Source of the DNA: a virus | Direction: 5' to 3' (one strand) | IMG/VR virus record: IMGVR_UViG_3300028131_000046 | Span: 1 to 22,565 of that record | Length of the DNA stretch: 22,565 bases | In this document: one piece after another, positions 5,152 through 22,565 of the stretch | Numbering within the stretch: position 1 is the stretch's first letter | Layout of the letters: each line of letters starts with the position of its first letter | Translations under genes and position numbers: made by a program | The notes under the pieces: model-generated | Seen by the model: the letters and a program-made list of their open reading frames with translations, nothing else | What the model was told of the DNA's origin: nothing | Databases searched by the model: none

Positions 5152-5898
5152 TTATATCTCATCTTCAATATAATCATTATCATCTAATGATGTTTTCATA
5201 TCAACTTCACTGTAATCAGAATCAACATCATCTTTAGTTAATAAATATTCTTTTGGTTCTTCTTCACCTTCTTTATCCATAATATCATACTTACCTTCTT
5301 GACTACCCCAGAAATCAGTTAATTTTAAATTATATGGATAAGAGTCAAGTGAACGCATTTCAATCTTCTCTTCTGGAGTTGGTGCTCTTTTTTCTAATTC
5401 ACCTTCTAATGATTCAATCTTATCTGAAATTGCTTCCATTGACTGTAATTGCCCTTCAAGGTTTCCAACCATACTCATTAGTTGGTCAATCTTTTCATTT
5501 GCAGCATCCGCTGATACTTTAGCTTCTTCTGAACCCTTAACTAATTCTGTTACGTCTAATTCAACTTCGTCACCAGATGGTTCTTCCATGTCTAATTCAA
5601 CTTCGTCACCAGATGGTTCTTCCATGTCTAATTCAACTTCGTCACCAGATGGTTCTTCCATGTCTAATTCATCTTCAGGTGCTTCTTCATCACCAAACCC
5701 TAAATCTGCTTCAGGTGCTTCTTCATCAGATGGTTCTTCCATGTCTAATTCATCTTCAGGTGCTTCTTCATCTTCTTCATTCATACCTAGAATTAGATTT
5801 TCATCTTCTTCTTTATCTTCGTAGAATGAATATTCAGATATTAATTTAAATTTCTTAATTTCTTCATTAAGTAATTCTTTGTTTATTTTTTTTCTCAT
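5152..5898 (-). CDS. Very acidic repeat-containing protein, probable virion/assembly protein
   Basis: I do not recognise a family. Residues 1-27 are basic/helical (MRKKINKELLNEEIKKFKL). Residues 28-118 are a Glu/Asp-rich low-complexity region with repeats: three perfect LDMEEPSGDEVE units of 12 residues, plus two copies of an EEAPEDELDMEEPS block. Residues about 127-170 are a probable coiled coil (EKIDQLMSMVGNLEGQ onwards). A more ordinary region (MRSLDSYPYNLKLTDFWGSQEG, about 181-202) follows, then another acidic tail. No signal peptide or membrane segment. The coiled coil plus acidic repeats resembles phage scaffold/prohead-core or tail-assembly proteins, but a DNA-mimic or buffer role is also possible. 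It is the last gene before the terminator at 5091-5126. Confidence 0.75.
   Translation of the reverse strand: MRKKINKELLNEEIKKFKLISEYSFYEDKEEDENLILGMNEEDEEAPEDELDMEEPSDEEAPEADLGFGDEEAPEDELDMEEPSGDEVELDMEEPSGDEVELDMEEPSGDEVELDVTELVKGSEEAKVSADAANEKIDQLMSMVGNLEGQLQSMEAISDKIESLEGELEKRAPTPEEKIEMRSLDSYPYNLKLTDFWGSQEGKYDIMDKEGEEEPKEYLLTKDDVDSDYSEVDMKTSLDDNDYIEDEI
5555..5775 (-). repeat. In-frame 36-bp tandem repeats in the acidic protein gene
   Basis: Three perfect 36-bp copies lie at 5555-5590, 5591-5626 and 5627-5662. A related longer block covering GAAGAAGCACCTGAAGATGA and its flanks occurs twice more, between about 5649-5692 and 5729-5772. The unit is a multiple of three, so copy-number change keeps the frame. 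The identity at DNA level, including third positions, suggests recent expansion or homogenisation. Confidence 0.9.
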
Positions 5899-7178: not shown

Positions 7179-7928
7179 TTATTTGTTGCTACCATTACCT
7201 CCACCTCCAGATTTTAAATCTGATGTGAAACTTAAGTCAGAAACTTCATTACTTAAATCCCTTTCTGAATATCCATATCTTGTACCGTTTTCACTTTTAC
7301 CTGGTCCTTTACAACCACCACTTGATTGTTTACAACCACCACCACTTCTTTCTTTTATACATCTACAATCGTCTAGCTTTTCTGGGAATGGTGCATAACC
7401 AGTTTTCCAAAGTTCAAAACCAGCACTCTTAATTTTTGGTCTTCTAATAAATTCATCAAATGGGAATGTGTATGGGTCTATTTTTCTACCAGGTGAAATC
7501 CAATGATGCCCAGTAATATATTTTAAATTAGGTATTGATTCTTTTAAATCTAAAATTAAGTTAGCACAAGCCGTTATCTGTTGATTATTAAATTTATTAT
7601 TACCTTCAGTACCTAACATACTAAATGATATACCAATACTATAAGAATTAACAAATCTACCTTTAGGTCCGTATGAATTACCAGCATGACTAAGTTTTCT
7701 AGTAGCTGGGGCACCCTGATATATCTTACCTTGTTTATCTATTAAAAAATGATAACCATAACCCTTACTTTTAAGTGTTGTAACATCACTAGTAATACTA
7801 GCACCAGCAGTCCAATGTAATACAATAGTGTTAATATCATCTATATCCATACTTTTTTTATTTAAAAAATATGGTTGTATTAATTTAAAATCTTCATTTT
7901 TAACATTCTCAAATGGTTGTATTGCCAT
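7179..7928 (-). CDS. N-acetylmuramoyl-L-alanine amidase (Amidase_2/T7 lysozyme type) with Cys/Gly tail
   Basis: This is a zinc amidase that cleaves the bond between N-acetylmuramic acid and L-alanine in peptidoglycan. The fold is visible from about 30 to 160: TIVLHWTAG (H38 first zinc ligand), GYGYHFLIDKQGKIYQG, SHAGNSYG (H81), SIGISFSM, then GHHWISPGRKIDP with H141 or H142 as the second ligand, K149 at the catalytic Lys position of T7 lysozyme, and D151 as the third ligand where T7 has Cys130. After residue 165 comes a tail of about 85 aa with Cys at 188, 190, 199 and 206 set among Gly/Ser/Lys, ending GGGGNGSNK. No signal peptide or holin partner is seen. It directly follows the giant hub gene (14-base gap), so it could be a virion-borne tail lysin or the lysis endolysin; the context slightly favours the former. 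Confidence 0.9.
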   Translation of the reverse strand: MAIQPFENVKNEDFKLIQPYFLNKKSMDIDDINTIVLHWTAGASITSDVTTLKSKGYGYHFLIDKQGKIYQGAPATRKLSHAGNSYGPKGRFVNSYSIGISFSMLGTEGNNKFNNQQITACANLILDLKESIPNLKYITGHHWISPGRKIDPYTFPFDEFIRRPKIKSAGFELWKTGYAPFPEKLDDCRCIKERSGGGCKQSSGGCKGPGKSENGTRYGYSERDLSNEVSDLSFTSDLKSGGGGNGSNK

Positions 7929-13574: not shown

Positions 13575-16500
13575 TTATAGTATTATTGGTTGTCTATTTT
13601 GACCAACTTTTGTTGTTACAGAAATCTTATTATTACCATCAGAACTAGTAACAATAAATGAAACTAAATAATCAACATTTGATTCATTTTCTTTATAATC
13701 AATAATAACATTATTAACCTTATATTGACTAAACTTAACTGAAGTTAGTATTTCAAAATCATCCTTACCAGAAGTAATTGTTTCATCACTTACAGGTACT
13801 TCAAAATATACCTTATCATTAATAGTACCATCTTCATTAAAAATAAGTTTTTCAACCCTTAATTTTTTAACTGTATAGTCTTGACTAATATCTTTCTTGA
13901 GTTGTACGCCAATACTTAAACTATTAACACCACTTTCAACTAACTTTGCTGTTACAGGTTTTATTATATCATTTTCATATTGATTTACTTGAGTATTTTC
14001 AGTCTTATTAGCTTCGTTATTAGATTCAACTTCTTGATTATTGGTAGAATCGTTTGTATTATTACTTAAACCTAATTTATTTTGTGGTTCTTCTAATGGT
14101 GTTTTTGGTGAATTTACTTTTTCACCTGGAACAAGTTCACCATAACCCTTACCTTCATCATTTGCTTGAAGTCCTTGTTTAATTTTAATTCTATCAGCTC
14201 TTGCATCGTATATCTCAGTATTAGCAAAGAAGTTATATGATACAGCGTTTTGTAGTTTATTAATTGGGCCTTCTAAACTTGAGCCACCTATAAATGCAAA
14301 ATTAATTGTTACATTAGCAATCATTGGTTGTACACCTACACCTTCTGGGTTTAAATCCCAAACAAGTGGTTCAAAGTCTAAAGACATTGAATCGATTGCT
14401 ATCTTAGTATGATAAAAATCACCAATTCTAAGTATAGACACTGGTGGTCTACCAAAAGCTAAGTTATCAGGTATTCCTTGGTCATGTTTAGTAGGACCTT
14501 GTCTAGTACACTGATGTAAGAAATTAAGTCTTGAGTTAAATCCTTCTGGTGTTATACTATGAAATGATGGGTGAAAATATTTGAGTTTTTCTCTTATATT
14601 ATCATAAACAAAATTATTATTCTCTTCTATCTTCTTAAAATAATGACATTCAGTAAAGAATCTACTTGCTGGTATACTAACATCAGAGAATGGATTAGTA
14701 TTAGGGTTTTCGTATTGACTATCTATTAACTCATCTTCTTTTAAAGAAGCATCATAACTAATCGTAACTTCAACCTTTCTAGCTTTTTTACAACCTAATC
14801 TGTCTTGACCGTTATCACCAGAACAACCATCACCAACACTAACAGAACCAGAACCACTAGTTTTATATCTCTTATTAACTAACTTATCATCAAATATTGA
14901 ACTACCGTTTGGTGTTATAGTTACTTGTGTCATAACTTGATTTTTAAACCAATTTTCAACATTTTTAGCCCTTTCTTCAGATAAAGTTTGGTTATTACTT
15001 GAATTATCATTATTACTTGCTGATTGATTTCCTTGTGTACTTGCATAACCAGTTATATTAACTCTACAATACTTACACTTTTCAATCATAAATGTATTTA
15101 ACTCAGCAAAGAAATCATTATCTTTTATCCAACCCTCAGTTGTAACCCCGTCAATAGTTATAGGTTGTTTCCAACCATTAAGACCAAAATTAGTATTATT
15201 AGGGTATACAAAAGAACCACCACCTACTGTACCATCACCAGTGGTTGTTCCATTTTGTTCCGTCATAGCTGAAACTGGTAATTTATTTCCACCACTATCT
15301 AAACCATCTTCATAAGTTATTGGTATTGAAGATTCGTCATTTGGGAAATAAACAGTAAAGGTAACATCTGGTGGAAGAGTATCATCAACCTTTTCTGGTT
15401 TTTTAGTGTTATCTTTTTTCTCAATATCATCTCTTTGTTGTTGAGTTAATACTAGATTTCTAACATCTTCGTATTCTAAACAACCAGCAAAGAAAGACGC
15501 TATATCATCATTATCAAAATTGTCAGGAAAGAAGTTAGCATAATTTGGATGGTCAATAATAACTTTCCATGAAAGAGTTCCAGTTCTTTCAGTATTGTTG
15601 TAAGTATATATTGGTTCACCTCTACCTATAAAATTGCTTTTATCCCAGCTTACAGACGTTGTCTCGTTAAAACTGATGTCATATGGTGGAAACCACATAA
15701 TTCTTCCTCTAAGACCACTTAACGGGTCTCCTGGACCCTTTTCACACTCTAATAGATTAGTTAAATCATCAGCCCATGCTAAATTCTCTATTGAGAACAT
15801 ATATCTTTTTATATCATCTAGATTACCTTCTTCATCTGTAGTTGGACCTATATTAACAAAACCAGTACTATTTAAAACTGAAGATTTTAAATTATTCGCG
15901 TTTGGTCTATTTGGGAAGTTTGGTCCACCAATAAGTCCAGAATGTTTTTGTAAGTCTTGTACATTGTTATATTTTCTAACTGGTGACCATGTTCTACAAA
16001 ATACATTATCATCTTCTGATGTATTCCCAGCAAGTGCATCAGCACTCAAAACACCAGAACCCTTAGATATTTTATTAGCAACTGTACCTACAGCTCTAAC
16101 ACCACTTTGTATTTCAGTTTTAGTTTCTTTACCGAAACGACCAGAAACAAGTGTTTTAATTTTATTATTTTTAAATAATTTTTGAGTCTTGGTTAAAATA
16201 CTATTTTTATTTTCTGTTTTTAAACTGTATACACCATTAGTTGGTTTATTATTATTTTCATCACCCCAAATAAATTTACCTAAACCATCATTATCACCAC
16301 TTATGTTATCTTCACTCTCAGTAACATTATCGATTAAAGAAGGAAATCCTTCAGATATATCAGCTATATTTTCTAAATTACCACCATTGTTAAGTTTAGA
16401 ACCATAAGCATATATTGAACCACCACTAAGTGGTCCTTGGTTATAACCTCTTCCAGTTCTTTCATCAATAAATTCTGGGACAAAACCTTGTCTTGCACCT

Positions 16501-17531
16501 TTACCTGTAAATTTAGGGTCTATATTTGCATTCATGTTAGCAAACATTTGTAACACTTGACCTTTACCAGTATTACTAATCATACTATTAGCTCTAGTTA
16601 TGTTACCTGTTTCATTTCCACTATCAGCTGCAAATATTGAAGATTCATTCCCTAAAAGACTAAATGGTATTTTAGCGCCACTCATTCTTTCTAATAAATC
16701 ACCAGCTGTACCTAAAGTACCTTGACCTACTGTAATCTTATAATTTGGTACTATAAGACTATTACCTTTAGCAAGACTAATTGGGTTTAAATTAACTCTA
16801 CCTAATGTATTTTCTTGTAACTCAAATGCTATATTATTACCAATAGCTGTTGCTAGGTATCCAGCAGCAAGTTGACCTAATCTTGTATCATTTATTACAC
16901 CTGTTGCAGTAAGTACTCTACCAGCTAATGAACTTCTAACATCAAAGTCAGATGTTAATCCACCGCCATTTGGGTCAAATCCAATACCACCACCTTGAGT
17001 AACGCTACCAATTATATCTAACGGTTGAGTTGAAGGACCGCCAACATTTAAGTTATTATTTTCATCTAAATAAGAACCTGTTTGATTTCCAAATTTCTTA
17101 TAAACTATATCAACTGGTGTTAACTTAGTAACATCTAAATATTGGTTGTTGATAACATTTGACTCTAAGTTATCTTCATTAGCTTCTAATAATTGAGCAG
17201 CAATATTACTATAAGGTTCATTATTCCATACATTACCAGCAATTGTTGAATTTGTATTACCTGGAAGGAAATTAACATTATATTGTTGGTAATCAATATT
17301 ATCACCTTGGTATTTATTAACAGATATATTACCATCCTTATAAAAAACACCATCATCTTCTATATTAGGTGAACTTTGGACTGATAAAGGTTGTGTTGAT
17401 GGGTCTGCTGGATACCCAATACCAACTAATTCTGATAATAAACCATTATCGGTTATTGTATCAGTAATTACATTTCTATTAAGTAATATATCCCTAAAAG
17501 TTGGTGATAACGTATTTATTCCATTTGGCAT
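13575..17531 (-). CDS. 1318-aa baseplate structural protein with inserted OmpA-like domain
   Basis: This is a large virion protein. Residues 1-500 are Gly/Asn-rich with no recognised domain. Residues about 575-690 (MFSIENLAWADDL, then GRIMWFPPYDISF, then TERTGTLSWKVIIDHP) resemble tube/baseplate proteins of contractile tails. Residues 722-926 form an OmpA-like domain: VTFTVYFPNDESSIP at the first strand, ITGYASTQG (825-833), LSEERAKNVENWF (850-862) with the conserved Arg (R854), and ARKVEVTISYD at the last strand. The domain contains an extra Ser/Gly-rich insertion with Cys pairs. From about 950 the baseplate-like region resumes (HSITPEGFNSRLNFLHQC, then FGRPPVSILRIGDFY, then ANVTINFAFIGGSSL). 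A Thr/Asn linker and a beta-type C-terminal domain (about 1185-1318) finish the protein. AAAAAGA lies 7 bases upstream of the ATG. OmpA-like domains normally bind peptidoglycan, so contact with the cell wall during infection is a reasonable inference. Confidence 0.75.
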   Translation of the reverse strand: MPNGINTLSPTFRDILLNRNVITDTITDNGLLSELVGIGYPADPSTQPLSVQSSPNIEDDGVFYKDGNISVNKYQGDNIDYQQYNVNFLPGNTNSTIAGNVWNNEPYSNIAAQLLEANEDNLESNVINNQYLDVTKLTPVDIVYKKFGNQTGSYLDENNNLNVGGPSTQPLDIIGSVTQGGGIGFDPNGGGLTSDFDVRSSLAGRVLTATGVINDTRLGQLAAGYLATAIGNNIAFELQENTLGRVNLNPISLAKGNSLIVPNYKITVGQGTLGTAGDLLERMSGAKIPFSLLGNESSIFAADSGNETGNITRANSMISNTGKGQVLQMFANMNANIDPKFTGKGARQGFVPEFIDERTGRGYNQGPLSGGSIYAYGSKLNNGGNLENIADISEGFPSLIDNVTESEDNISGDNDGLGKFIWGDENNNKPTNGVYSLKTENKNSILTKTQKLFKNNKIKTLVSGRFGKETKTEIQSGVRAVGTVANKISKGSGVLSADALAGNTSEDDNVFCRTWSPVRKYNNVQDLQKHSGLIGGPNFPNRPNANNLKSSVLNSTGFVNIGPTTDEEGNLDDIKRYMFSIENLAWADDLTNLLECEKGPGDPLSGLRGRIMWFPPYDISFNETTSVSWDKSNFIGRGEPIYTYNNTERTGTLSWKVIIDHPNYANFFPDNFDNDDIASFFAGCLEYEDVRNLVLTQQQRDDIEKKDNTKKPEKVDDTLPPDVTFTVYFPNDESSIPITYEDGLDSGGNKLPVSAMTEQNGTTTGDGTVGGGSFVYPNNTNFGLNGWKQPITIDGVTTEGWIKDNDFFAELNTFMIEKCKYCRVNITGYASTQGNQSASNNDNSSNNQTLSEERAKNVENWFKNQVMTQVTITPNGSSIFDDKLVNKRYKTSGSGSVSVGDGCSGDNGQDRLGCKKARKVEVTISYDASLKEDELIDSQYENPNTNPFSDVSIPASRFFTECHYFKKIEENNNFVYDNIREKLKYFHPSFHSITPEGFNSRLNFLHQCTRQGPTKHDQGIPDNLAFGRPPVSILRIGDFYHTKIAIDSMSLDFEPLVWDLNPEGVGVQPMIANVTINFAFIGGSSLEGPINKLQNAVSYNFFANTEIYDARADRIKIKQGLQANDEGKGYGELVPGEKVNSPKTPLEEPQNKLGLSNNTNDSTNNQEVESNNEANKTENTQVNQYENDIIKPVTAKLVESGVNSLSIGVQLKKDISQDYTVKKLRVEKLIFNEDGTINDKVYFEVPVSDETITSGKDDFEILTSVKFSQYKVNNVIIDYKENESNVDYLVSFIVTSSDGNNKISVTTKVGQNRQPIIL

Positions 17532-17827: not shown

Positions 17828-20356
17828 TTATCCAAATTGAGGGTTAGGAGTTAGTTTATTTTCATTTCTATTTCCAGCAATTCGTTGTGCTATCATTGAT
17901 ATTAATCTTTCTTGTGTATCTGGATTGTTAAGATGTTCCGCACCATCACCTTCAAACCTAATAGTTCCTTTAATATCATCAAATTTATGTTTAACTTCTG
18001 ATGAACCACCATTACCAAAATGCTTATCAGCAACTTTACTCAATTGGTTTTCTGATGTGGATGCCATCATAACATCATTAACTTTCATAAATTTATCTCT
18101 AGGATTAAATTCTATTATAGCATCATTAGCTGATACTGTTTTTGCTTGTGGAATCATTGCTTGTGGTCCTCTTCCATTATTACCAGTATCAGAGTTTTTA
18201 CCAAATTCATTATAAAGGCCGTATAAAGCACCTAAACCACCACCAACTAAACCACCTAATGGACCAAGAAGCATACCTAATGAAGCACCTGTTAAAGCTG
18301 AACTACCAACACCTAAAGCTTTACCAGCACCACTATTATAAAATTCTTCATCTTCACTACCTCTAAGATAATCCACTCCCATACCAGCTAAACCAAGACC
18401 CATACCACCAACAAGTGAACCCATGCTACCAGCTGCAAATCTAGAACCACCACCAGCCAATTTAGCTAATGTCTTATTGCCACCAAACCTATTTAATGTA
18501 GCAGCACCTCTACTCATTCTAGAACCGCCTAAACCCATAAATCCAGTACCTCTAGAAGCAACACCACCAGCAACTCCAGAACCACCTCCGAAGCCACCTC
18601 CTAAGCCACCACCCATATTAAATCCCGTTCTGAGTAATTTACCAGTAGCTATCCAAGACGCAGCTTTAAATAACCCAATACCTAAAAGTGATTTAATAGG
18701 GTTTTCTATAATAAATTTACCGATACTACCAGCTAATTTAGCAGCCCCACCAGCAAAATTTCTAAGAGTAGTATAAAACCCTTCTTTATTCCATTTCTCT
18801 TGTAAATCCTGTAATGGTTTACCTAAAAATTCTTTTAAGTCTTTAGCTACAGGAACTAATACTTGCTTAAGTGTCATTGTCAAGTCTGTAATAACTTCTT
18901 CAAATGTTCTTGCAGCTTTAGCCCTTTTTTCAAGTGTTTCTTTTTCATTTCTAATTGAATCTAATTGACTTGCTTCTAAATTTTTAACTAATTCGTCTTT
19001 ACCATCAATATTAATATAAAACTCACCATTTTTTAATTCAGCTACACTTGATATAAACTCCTTATCTTTATCTTCAAAATTTATTGGTGTTATTGAACCT
19101 ATGGATTCTATCTTCTTTTGCTGAACAGCCATTTCTTGAAGTTTCTCAACACTAAGACCTGTCATCTTAGATATTTCCCTCATTCTATCTCTTGCAAGAC
19201 CTCCCATAACCTCGAAAGAGCCCGTCTCCTTGTTGAACTCAACAAATTCAGAGGTAGCCTTACCAATATCCTTAGCGAAGCCTTCCATGTCATTTCTAGC
19301 CTTAAACATAAGTGTCATAGGGTCACCTAGTTTTGCGAACTCTCCACCCATTACAGATAGTTGTGCTGCCATTTCTATAGCACCTTCTGGTCTAAACACC
19401 TTATCAGCTAGACTGGCGATGCCATCCATATCTAATTTAAGTCTAAGAGCATCAGACGACATTTTACCTAATGCCTTAACACCACCCTTAAAGTTATATT
19501 TTTGAGCTAATTTAAGATTCTTTTGTAATGCTTGTGAAGCCGCTGCACCATTAACACCCATTTCACCAGCGATGTTCATAGTGTCTTCAACCATCTTAGC
19601 ACTAGCTTCAGCACCAACACCAAAATTATCCATAGCTGAAGCCATACCTATAGCAAACTGTTCGCCAAGTCCAGTACCTTCAGCCATTCCAGCCATAGCT
19701 TTAAGACCACCTTCTGTAAGTCTTACACTTCTACCAATTTCTTTACTATAACCACCTTGTAATATTGCTAACTTTTTCAAGTTAACACCCATCATTGTGG
19801 TACTATCAGCTGCGGAATATAAATTTTTTGAGAAAGAATCAAACTGGGAACTACCAAGAGCCATGCTTCTTGATGCGTTACGGATTTCTTTATCCATATC
19901 AAACACACCATAAGACCTAAGCTTATCCCAACCCCACTTTTTAACAAAGTTACCTGTTGAATTAGCTATTGATTTAAGCTTATTAGCTTCTTTAACTGAT
20001 TCTTTTAAATTTTTAAGAGCCTCTTTATGTTCTTTGTTTTGTTGATTTAAGTAACCAATTCTAGATTTTATATATGGTTCCTGTTCTTTTAAGACAGCTA
20101 AAGTCTTTTTTTCTTGGTCGGTTAGTTTTGAAGCTTCTTTTTTTCTTAATTTAGTTAAAGTTTCTAATTCTTTCTCACTAGCCTTAATTTGTTTTTGAGT
20201 ATTAATTATATCCTTCTCTACTTCATTAATCTTTTTAGTAGCTTCATACCATTTACCAATACCCTTCTCAACTTCTTGAGAACCCTTACGAACATCAGCT
20301 AAGTTTCTTTTAAACTTATCAAATTCGTCATTAAAATCTTTAAAATTATCAGCCAT
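17828..20356 (-). CDS. Probable tail tape measure protein
   Basis: This protein sets tail length by spanning the tube during assembly. Residues 1-130 are a charged coiled coil (KKINEVEKDIINTQKQIKAS and onwards). Residues about 150-420 are helical with Ala/Gly/Met-rich segments (GLKAMAGMAEGTGLGEQF, then GEMGVNGAAASQALQKN). Residues about 430-530 are again helical. Residues 535-715 hold several hydrophobic Gly-rich, membrane-like stretches (ENPIKSLLGIGLFKAASWIA, MGSLVGGMGLGLAGMG, LGMLLGPLGGLVGGGLGALY), typical of tape measure proteins. The C-terminal 120 residues look globular. At 842 aa, the usual rule of about 0.15 nm per residue would give a tail near 125 nm (an inference). It sits between the chaperone-like/515-aa genes and the baseplate genes, which is the expected position. 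No peptidase or lysozyme domain is visible. Confidence 0.8.
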   Translation of the reverse strand: MADNFKDFNDEFDKFKRNLADVRKGSQEVEKGIGKWYEATKKINEVEKDIINTQKQIKASEKELETLTKLRKKEASKLTDQEKKTLAVLKEQEPYIKSRIGYLNQQNKEHKEALKNLKESVKEANKLKSIANSTGNFVKKWGWDKLRSYGVFDMDKEIRNASRSMALGSSQFDSFSKNLYSAADSTTMMGVNLKKLAILQGGYSKEIGRSVRLTEGGLKAMAGMAEGTGLGEQFAIGMASAMDNFGVGAEASAKMVEDTMNIAGEMGVNGAAASQALQKNLKLAQKYNFKGGVKALGKMSSDALRLKLDMDGIASLADKVFRPEGAIEMAAQLSVMGGEFAKLGDPMTLMFKARNDMEGFAKDIGKATSEFVEFNKETGSFEVMGGLARDRMREISKMTGLSVEKLQEMAVQQKKIESIGSITPINFEDKDKEFISSVAELKNGEFYINIDGKDELVKNLEASQLDSIRNEKETLEKRAKAARTFEEVITDLTMTLKQVLVPVAKDLKEFLGKPLQDLQEKWNKEGFYTTLRNFAGGAAKLAGSIGKFIIENPIKSLLGIGLFKAASWIATGKLLRTGFNMGGGLGGGFGGGSGVAGGVASRGTGFMGLGGSRMSRGAATLNRFGGNKTLAKLAGGGSRFAAGSMGSLVGGMGLGLAGMGVDYLRGSEDEEFYNSGAGKALGVGSSALTGASLGMLLGPLGGLVGGGLGALYGLYNEFGKNSDTGNNGRGPQAMIPQAKTVSANDAIIEFNPRDKFMKVNDVMMASTSENQLSKVADKHFGNGGSSEVKHKFDDIKGTIRFEGDGAEHLNNPDTQERLISMIAQRIAGNRNENKLTPNPQFG

Positions 20357-20379: not shown

Positions 20380-21927
20380 TTACTTTTTTTCTTTATTTTT
20401 ATTCTTACTAGATTTAACTATTTTAATCTTACCTTCACCAATATCTACCAATTTTTTACCCTTATCTAGTTTTCCTTTTAAAATGACTTCATATATTTTG
20501 AAATTATCATTATCTTGTAATTCCTTTAATATATCTATTCTGTATTTAAAAGCACCACTAGTTCTTTTATCTTGAAAGTTAGTTGCTAGGTTAGGATAAA
20601 TATCACCAGGACCTCTTTTTTTAACAATTGTGTAATATCTTCTACCTTCTTTCATAGGCATATCTTTAGTATTACTATCTGTAACTCTAAACTGAGTAAA
20701 CTCAATCATCTTCTGTTCACCAGTTTTAAAATCCTTTAATAACTTTGAATTTTTTTCAGCTGACTTAAGCCATCCAGATAATTTTTCATCAGCTGGTATA
20801 ATACCTCTTTCTTTAGCAACGCCTATAAATTCTAAAAATGCGTTAGGTTTTCTCCAAAGAGCATTCCTAAGGATTTTATCATCTTTCATGAATTCTTTAA
20901 ACTGAGCTTCTATTTCATCATCAGACAAACCATTAAACTCATCTTCTTCAGAATCTATTTGACTCTTAATATCTGATGATATGTAATTATCTATAGCATA
21001 AATTACAAAATCTTCTGACTTAGATTTAACATTACCACCATCTTCAGCACCACCAACATACTTTTTCATTTTTATATCAGCGTAATCGGGTTTGAATATA
21101 ACTTTACCAGTTTTATCATCCTTAACTTCTTTAACCTTTAAATCTATATTTTTAGAGTCTAATTTAAATTCTATTTGATTACCAACTAATTCTTTATACC
21201 TATCAGCCTCTTCACTTCCGTAAGCACTATCAATCTCCCAAGAAACACTACTTGAATCTTTACTAGTAACAATTAGATTTAATTGCCCACCACCCTTAAA
21301 TTCAAATAGATAAGTATTATCTAATTTAGACTCTCTAATAGTATTTAATAAATCATTTACAGCATCAGTTCTAGTATCTTCTTCAGTTGGTTCTGAATTA
21401 TCTATATTATCTTGTCCAGGCTCTTCAATTGCACCAGTATCAACATTAACATTAAACTTAGCTTTTAAATTAGAATCTAAATTACAATTTAAATCAGTAC
21501 CAGCACCCTCAAAAACTTTAAAATCTTTAATTTTATTATTTTTTTGTTTCCAGTTTTTAACGTCTGATTTAATAGATTTTATAGAACTAATATCCTTTAT
21601 ATTCTTATGTTGCTCAATATCTGCTGATAACTTACCATCACCTTGTAAACTAGAAGCAGTTAAGAACCAGAATTCATTCTTATGAACACCATTATTACAA
21701 TTAATCATTAATATTTGACCACTAAAAGCATCAATAACTTTGAAATGTAATTCACTACCACCCAATGTAGTAACCATTATAGCATCACCAGCTTTGATTT
21801 TTCTAATAGCATCGGACATATTCTGTTCCAATATCAATCTATTATACTGGGATTCAGTAATAACTAACTTAGTTTTGGGTTTATTGAATACCCTGTTATA
21901 TTGTGATTCATTAATAACTAACTTCAT
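20380..21927 (-). CDS. Unknown 515-aa tail-region protein with duplicated N-terminal tag
   Basis: I recognise no family for the full length. The N-terminus carries the same short motif twice, KLVINESQYNRVF (2-14) and KLVITESQYNRLI (20-32). A beta-rich segment follows (about 45-100: GDAIMVTTLGGSELHFKVID, then GQILMINCNNGV). Next come an acidic linker (about 170-190), another beta-rich section with lysine-heavy strands, a helical acidic patch (SQIDSEEDEFNGLSDDEIEA, about 335-354), and a basic tail ending KNKNKEKK. No signal peptide or membrane segment. It lies 23 bases before the tape measure gene and just after the terminator at 21963-21998, so it probably has its own promoter. An AAAAAGA box is 7 bases before the ATG. 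A tail assembly or virion role is likely from position only. Confidence 0.75.
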   Translation of the reverse strand: MKLVINESQYNRVFNKPKTKLVITESQYNRLILEQNMSDAIRKIKAGDAIMVTTLGGSELHFKVIDAFSGQILMINCNNGVHKNEFWFLTASSLQGDGKLSADIEQHKNIKDISSIKSIKSDVKNWKQKNNKIKDFKVFEGAGTDLNCNLDSNLKAKFNVNVDTGAIEEPGQDNIDNSEPTEEDTRTDAVNDLLNTIRESKLDNTYLFEFKGGGQLNLIVTSKDSSSVSWEIDSAYGSEEADRYKELVGNQIEFKLDSKNIDLKVKEVKDDKTGKVIFKPDYADIKMKKYVGGAEDGGNVKSKSEDFVIYAIDNYISSDIKSQIDSEEDEFNGLSDDEIEAQFKEFMKDDKILRNALWRKPNAFLEFIGVAKERGIIPADEKLSGWLKSAEKNSKLLKDFKTGEQKMIEFTQFRVTDSNTKDMPMKEGRRYYTIVKKRGPGDIYPNLATNFQDKRTSGAFKYRIDILKELQDNDNFKIYEVILKGKLDKGKKLVDIGEGKIKIVKSSKNKNKEKK

Positions 21928-21962: not shown

Positions 21963-21998
21963 AAAAAAATACCCAACTATTTAATTAGTTAGGTATTT
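21963..21998 (-). terminator. Rho-independent terminator overlapping the end of the +1-frame chaperone-like ORF
   Basis: On the minus strand AAATACCTAACTA pairs with TAGTTGGGTATTT, a 13-bp stem with one U-G wobble and a six-base loop, followed by a run of Ts. The upstream ORF's stop codon (TAA at 21987-21985) lies at the stem-loop junction. Confidence 0.85.
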
Positions 21999-22290
21999 GT
22001 CCTGTTTTTAATTTAGACTTTAATTGTTCACCACCTATCCTTGTGGTTCTAGAACCCTTAGCGTTTTTATTCCTAGCACTCTGCATTTGCTCCTCCATCA
22101 TTTCATTTTTCTTATTATTTTCATTAATAAGTGTTAATAAGAAAAACTTTCTTTCATGGGTTGGTGCTGATAAAACGTCTTGATAAGTCATACCTAAATG
22201 TTTTATACAAATATATATCTCCTCTAATAGTCCTGGTTTATATTCTGGCGTTAGGCCAAAAAAACCTTGGCGTAATGGGAAGAAACATAT
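21985..22290 (-). CDS. Second-frame ORF of the gp26-like gene (probable frameshift extension)
   Basis: The first ATG in this frame is at 22191 (68 aa, MTYQDVLSAPTHERKFFL). However, the frame is open from 22290, just after a TAA at 22293-22291, and encodes GLTPEYKPGLLEEIYICIKH before that Met. The ATG has no good ribosome binding sequence, and the upstream coding potential looks real. The translated region overlaps the gp26-like ORF by 53 bases and lies in the +1 frame relative to it. After the Met the protein is a charged helix (ERKFFLLTLINENNKKNEMM) and then a basic tail (SRTTRIGGEQLKSKLKTGQI). I read it as the C-terminal part of a frameshifted tail/baseplate assembly protein, similar in arrangement to tail assembly chaperones upstream of tape measure genes. 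An independently started small protein (22191 start) is the alternative. Confidence 0.7.
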   Translation of the reverse strand: MCFFPLRQGFFGLTPEYKPGLLEEIYICIKHLGMTYQDVLSAPTHERKFFLLTLINENNKKNEMMEEQMQSARNKNAKGSRTTRIGGEQLKSKLKTGQIPN

Positions 22291-22565
22291 TTATGGACCC
22301 ACCTCCAGGAGTCCTTACATCGATATTCATATCAATGCCACATTCTATCTTAGATATGTAATTTCTTAGACCTTGAGCATCTCCTACTCTCATAGAGTTT
22401 GCGAACTCTTTTATGTATGTTCTGTCTTTATTTCCATCAATATCAACTAACTGCCTTTCCAAAATAAGTGTTTGTTCTTCATTAATTGGATTATCTTTAT
22501 TTTCTTCTACTAATTTCTCAAGATTCTCTAACTCACCAACTGTAAGCATCTTAAACCTAACAATT
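22238..22565 (-). CDS. T4 gp26-like baseplate/tail assembly protein (5' end outside window)
   Basis: The reading frame is open to the right edge (IVRFK precedes the first Met in the window, at 22549), so that ATG is probably internal and the gene starts outside. The visible residues run from LTVGELENLEKLVEE to a conserved-looking block, ANSMRVGDAQGLRNYISKIE followed by FLPITPRFFWP, which fits what I remember of the T4 baseplate gp26 family (D-x-x-x-L-R-x-[FY]-I and the terminal FFWP). The zero frame stops seven codons after a T7 run at 22264-22258. Role inferred: assembly of the baseplate hub or tail. Family assignment is from memory of short motifs, so moderate confidence. Confidence 0.6.
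   Translation of the reverse strand, partial: IVRFKMLTVGELENLEKLVEENKDNPINEEQTLILERQLVDIDGNKDRTYIKEFANSMRVGDAQGLRNYISKIECGIDMNIDVRTPGGGSINMFLPITPRFFWPNARI
22258..22264 (-). promoter_or_regulatory. Candidate slippery site (T7) for +1 or -2 ribosomal frameshift
   Basis: The zero frame reads AGG TTT TTT TGG here. Skipping one T (+1), or slipping back two bases (-2), moves the ribosome into the frame that is open from 22290 down to 21985. Only about 33 bases (22290 to 22257) can host the shift, and the T7 run is the only evident slippery sequence among them. Confidence 0.55.

Follow-up and report, generated by a model that had tools for sequence, protein, structure and literature searches.

The tail-assembly pair G and GT is recognised by a fusion that is made by frameshifting at a fixed ratio, is needed for tail assembly and is absent from virions; in phage Mu a -2 slip has been reported. 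Long-tailed phages generally have the G/GT tail frameshift, "except T4" (PMC5009743). The SEA-PHAGES phage data include annotated forward shifts (PMC10885494), a +1 shift at TTT-CGC has been proposed for the tail chaperones of the HF1-group haloviruses (PMC7230728), and influenza PA-X and the plant amalgaviruses have UUU_CGN as an established +1 motif (PMC6356274, PMC8310308). In T4, gp26 and gp51 are both classed as chaperones of hub assembly, gp51 being described as essential and of unknown function (PMC3004832).

The window analysed here, a 22,565-nt stretch of viral DNA, ends inside a gene of the gp26 family whose reading frame overlaps a second, +1 frame. To judge from the sequences compared below, it is highly likely that a programmed +1 shift in this gene yields a short (G) and a long (GT) tail-assembly chaperone.

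Reading frames at the window locus

The features on which the argument depends are as follows.
22238..22564, minus strand: last 108 codons of G, the frame-0 gene of the gp26 family, whose relatives match PF12322 and PHROG 150
22238..22290, minus strand: overlap of 53 bases within which the shift must fall, from the reading-frame map
22256..22264, minus strand: proposed slip site UUU_UUU_UGG, nearly invariant across 41 clusters and placed by a table of re-pairing
21985..22257, minus strand: T domain (90 codons and a stop) in the +1 frame, reading GLTPEYKPGLLEE..., recognised by pN/pS and by its +1 position in 154 of 155 loci
17828..20356, minus strand: ORF of 842 aa that is the probable tail tape measure, judged by position, composition and the gene order of isolates

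The 5' part of the gp26-family gene lies beyond base 22565, and its last 108 aa alone fall within the window. In frame 0 the minus strand reads CCA AGG TTT TTT TGG CCT AAC GCC AGA ATA TAA at the site, and the G fragment ends in ...SINMFLPITPRFFWPNARI, its last residues being PRFFWPNARI and its stop lying at 22240-22238. The T7 run occupies 22264-22258, and the +1 frame, which opens past a stop at 22290 and continues to the stop at 21985, reads GLTPEYKPGLLEEIYICIKHLGMTYQDVLSAPTHERKFFLLTLINENNKK... from the site onward. Upstream of ATG 22191, which is preceded at a distance of one base by a weak AGG, this frame of the window holds no ATG, GTG or TTG. The overlap of frames noticed in the preliminary description, with the gp26-like frame ending shortly after the T-run and the +1 frame open across it, was borne out; the interval in which the shift must occur, put there at about 33 bases, is in fact 53 bases here and 23 bases in 4 of the 41 clusters.

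A 515-aa ORF sits between T and the probable tape measure, for which the family search gave no match. This ORF (20380-21927, minus strand), directly after T, carries repeated N-terminal motifs of the KLVITESQYNR type, also present in the relatives L002-L005. In the isolates L021, L023 and L029, two overlapping ORFs lie between the tail tube and tape measure genes. Elsewhere on the minus strand of the window are a 248-aa acidic ORF with tandem repeats of type DMEEPSGDEVEL (5152-5898), an Amidase_2 protein (4.4e-19) with a Cys/Gly-rich tail (7179-7928) and an ORF of 1318 aa that matches OmpA weakly (2.7e-4; 13575-17531).

Assignment to the gp26 family

The family of the frame-0 gene was recognised through its longer relatives, which were needed because the G fragment of the window alone gave no family match in the profile search and neither window fragment found anything in direct tblastn comparison with phages. 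Full-length relatives match PF12322 (T4_baseplate, gp26/gp51) and PHROG 150, and most exceed the Pfam cut-off of 24.5 bits (25.0 for L007, 40.2 for L014, 25.1 for L016 and 100.4 for L023); the close relatives L002 and L005 score below it (19.6 and 17.5 bits). The model of G matched no solved structure in the PDB search, and in the viral structure library it found gp26 of Aeromonas phage 25 (E 3.5e-5) together with many gp26-like proteins, pointing to the same fold as T4-type gp26. The initial reading as a gp26-like tail/baseplate gene is right as to the family (PF12322), although the T4 members are classed with the chaperones of hub assembly and not with the baseplate parts.

Conservation of the two frames and selection on T

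A set of 164 loci with a gp26-family ORF was assembled, and a T-domain profile was used to find the downstream ORF. The T domain was detected in 155 of them, in the +1 frame in 154 and in the -1 frame in one. These counts are not independent, because the set includes contigs retrieved in duplicate and itself supplied part of the training sequences for the T profile; the 41 protein clusters, formed at 70% identity, give a safer basis for counting. The nine loci without a match comprise four cut contigs, a true T4-type gp26 (L037) and four phages inspected by eye. Two of these, Pseudomonas phage QdP_Psa3 (L026) and Xanthomonas phage phiXF1 (L030), have a T-like +1 ORF after GAC_UUC_UUU_CCC_UAA, where a slip at the CCC before the stop is possible; the other two, the jumbo phages RAS14 of Stenotrophomonas (L027) and XacN1 of Xanthomonas (L028), have a T-like -1 ORF at U_UUU_UUU. 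In these jumbo phages U_UUU_UUU lies near the end of the gp26-family gene, and the locus is annotated as two unrelated genes.

The comparison of homologues proposed at the outset thus showed that both the two-frame arrangement and the U-run are kept. Two clean non-overlapping genes were not seen in any phage relative outside the T4 type, and none of the annotated isolates examined with a gp26-family gene carries a frameshift annotation. An error in the T-run that splits one ordinary ORF, homopolymer runs being error-prone, is excluded as an explanation, because many independent contigs and isolates have either T7 or T6C at this position, the last T of the run being a C in the latter.

In the 17 codons that separate the frame-0 stop from ATG 22191, pN/pS among six close relatives is 0.19 in the +1 frame, and it rises to 0.82 and 1.31 when the stretch is read in the two alternative frames; along the full length of the T domain it is 0.19-0.43 in the +1 frame. 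The +1 frame is therefore under purifying selection, including the codons that precede any start codon. This selection upstream of ATG 22191 argues against a separate T gene whose translation begins by reinitiation or at that ATG. The window group does possess the ATG, and in the stretch from the opening of the +1 ORF to 30 bases past the frame-0 stop an ATG occurs in 18 of 41 clusters and some start codon in 32; however, nine clusters have no start codon there at all, and some relatives carry G and T in one frame, so that separate initiation appears very improbable.

The proposed slip site

Nearly all 41 clusters have a junction of the form [UUU/CUU]_UUU_(UGG/CGN/UAC), commonly UUU_UUU_UGG_CCU, CUU_UUU_UGG_CCU or UUU_UUU_CGN and more rarely UUC_UUU_CGU, CUG_UUU_CGC, UUU_CUU_UGG, UUU_UUU_UAC, UUU_UUU_CAC or UUU_UUU_AGU; one cluster (L022), with UUU_CUA_UUC, was left out of the 40 assigned clusters. 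UUU is the second codon, that of the P site, in 39 of 41 clusters; UUC never occupies this position, whereas it makes up 32% of the Phe codons in the same loci as background; the log10 P of -7.7 for this codon test is illustrative only, because the test picks sites with UUU first and the clusters are related. UUU_CGN stands at the shift site in 11-12 of the 41 clusters. The window site, UUU_UGG, falls outside this motif, and UGG is the commonest A-site codon of the set, unlike the CGN of the known motif.

No consistent downstream RNA structure was found (mean z -0.96 over 40 clusters), the downstream RNA of the window being less structured than its shuffles (z +1.2). Shine-Dalgarno stimulation was considered and rejected: the window group has an AAGG 3 bases upstream of the P site, but L009 and most other clusters have no such site. 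No stimulator shared across the clusters was found.

Proposed shift and its direction

We infer the following scheme, including the occurrence, direction and efficiency of the shift and the chaperone function of its products. Most ribosomes would stop after PRFFWPNARI and release G. Some would stall while peptidyl-tRNA-Phe occupies the second UUU and the A site presents UGG; these would slip forward by one base, from UUU to UUU, and continue as GLTPEYKPGLLEE... to give GT. If the products act as lambda gpG/gpGT do, the tape measure would be bound by many G and few GT molecules, with T recruiting the tail-tube subunits. The short FFWP-ended and long fused forms, first suggested with a +1 or -2 shift left as alternatives, are supported by the kept frames, the U-run and the in-frame relatives.

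A -2 slip at the U-run would enter the same downstream frame, with RFFFGLT in place of RFFGLT. After a +1 slip the anticodon would face UUU or UUC in 39 of the 40 assigned clusters, and after a -2 slip the P-site UUU could re-pair in 38 of 40; most sites, the window's included, allow both. The +1 direction is favoured because the sites of two isolates, UUC_UUU_CGU (L020) and CUG_UUU_CGC (L025), re-pair only after +1, whereas that of Listeria LIS04 alone (L029, UUU_UUU_AGU) pairs well only after -2. The group with CGN in the A site also fits the known +1 motif, and a -2 slip is accordingly considered unlikely.

The frames could also be fused in the mRNA, by transcriptional slippage at the T7 run, which is a plausible length for it and from which the loss of one U would place GT in one frame. 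The run at the same junction is only three Ts long in the isolates L020, L021 and L025, which argues against this explanation, and it is T6 in 14 clusters; slippage of the transcript is thus very unlikely. The +1 frameshift in the gp26 family is a real and conserved feature of these sequences and, judging by the comparisons made, very probably functional.

Relatives carrying both parts in a single frame

A search for relatives in which the two parts form a single in-frame fusion, suggested in the preliminary description, led to T4 gp51 and to two ORFs of Bacteroidota injection systems. The T4 proteins gp26 and gp51 are paralogous, hhalign aligning them across 191 columns with E 6.6e-16, and both fall within PF12322. 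Compared to gp26, gp51 has approximately 45 extra C-terminal residues, which match the T profile (E about 1e-4), and the T-like end is present in gp51 only. In a trimmed alignment the end of gp51 scored 21.5 against T, whereas 500 column shuffles gave a mean of 9.3 (SD 2.0, maximum 16.3). When T4-type gp51 was compared by profile with a narrow phage set, the result was not significant, or was weak and not over T; significance was reached once the two sides had been widened by more divergent members. The fused L007 protein aligns with positions 9 to 281 of 282 of PHROG 150, whereas frame-0 proteins end near 235; some other fused proteins show no such extension. In AlphaFold models, the order of elements in G and T4-type gp51 is closely similar, with three helices added at the end of gp51, and both models match gp26-type proteins in the viral structure library.

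From these resemblances, T4 has probably replaced the frameshift by a gene duplication (gp26 and gp51). One viral database entry, from Citrobacter phage Moon, bears the name "tape measure chaperone", so others suspect this role as well; a statement that gp26 and gp51 are the G/GT pair of T4 was not found in the open-access literature.

In two Bacteroidota draft genomes (L184 and L185), PF12322 and DUF6760 (PF20546) are joined in one 255-aa ORF adjoining genes that resemble injection-system genes, DUF6760 lying above its cut-off of 27 bits in L184 and just below it in L185. The T domain of the window reaches 18.6-19.4 bits against DUF6760, under the cut-off; since the T profile finds the DUF6760 part of the injection-system ORFs (about 1e-4), T and DUF6760 are likely to be remotely akin. 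In a further injection-system locus (L183), G and DUF6760/T occupy overlapping ORFs with T in the -1 frame, and a -1 frameshift outside phages is possible there; G_GGG_GAA occurs at the overlap, on the minus strand near base 1486. The search for injection systems in plasmids found none. Taken as a whole, the gp26 family is probably an ancient frameshifting chaperone gene, which would explain why T4 lacks the general tail frameshift; in bacterial injection systems this pair takes the form of PF12322-DUF6760 fusions.

Comparison with known systems

The locus resembles lambda gpG/gpGT (Xu, Hendrix and Duda 2004; PMC5009743) in having an overlapping ORF pair just upstream of the tape measure and a predicted short and long product, and it differs in that lambda uses a -1 shift at a tandem slippery site, whereas G here is a gp26-family protein of T4-related phages. 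With the HF1-group haloviruses and HSTV-2 it shares a proposed +1 shift between tail tube and tape measure (PMC7230728, PMC5009743), but those are archaeal viruses whose first ORF matches neither PF12322 nor the G profile and whose T similarity is weak. The PA-X/amalgavirus motif is alike in that UUU in the P site slips +1 onto UUC with CGN next; it belongs to unrelated genes of eukaryotic RNA viruses, and the commonest A-site codon here is UGG.

The gp26-family frameshift points to a kind of gene that is split or cut short in annotation, and its +1 site, with gp51 as the in-frame counterpart, suggests a concrete and testable role for gp26 and gp51 as tape-measure chaperones. What appears to be new is that T4, the textbook exception to the G/GT frameshift, would have its counterpart in the paralogues gp26 and gp51: they belong to the same family (PF12322) and gp51 alone bears the T-like C-terminus, but they are two separate genes with no frameshift and one protein per gene.
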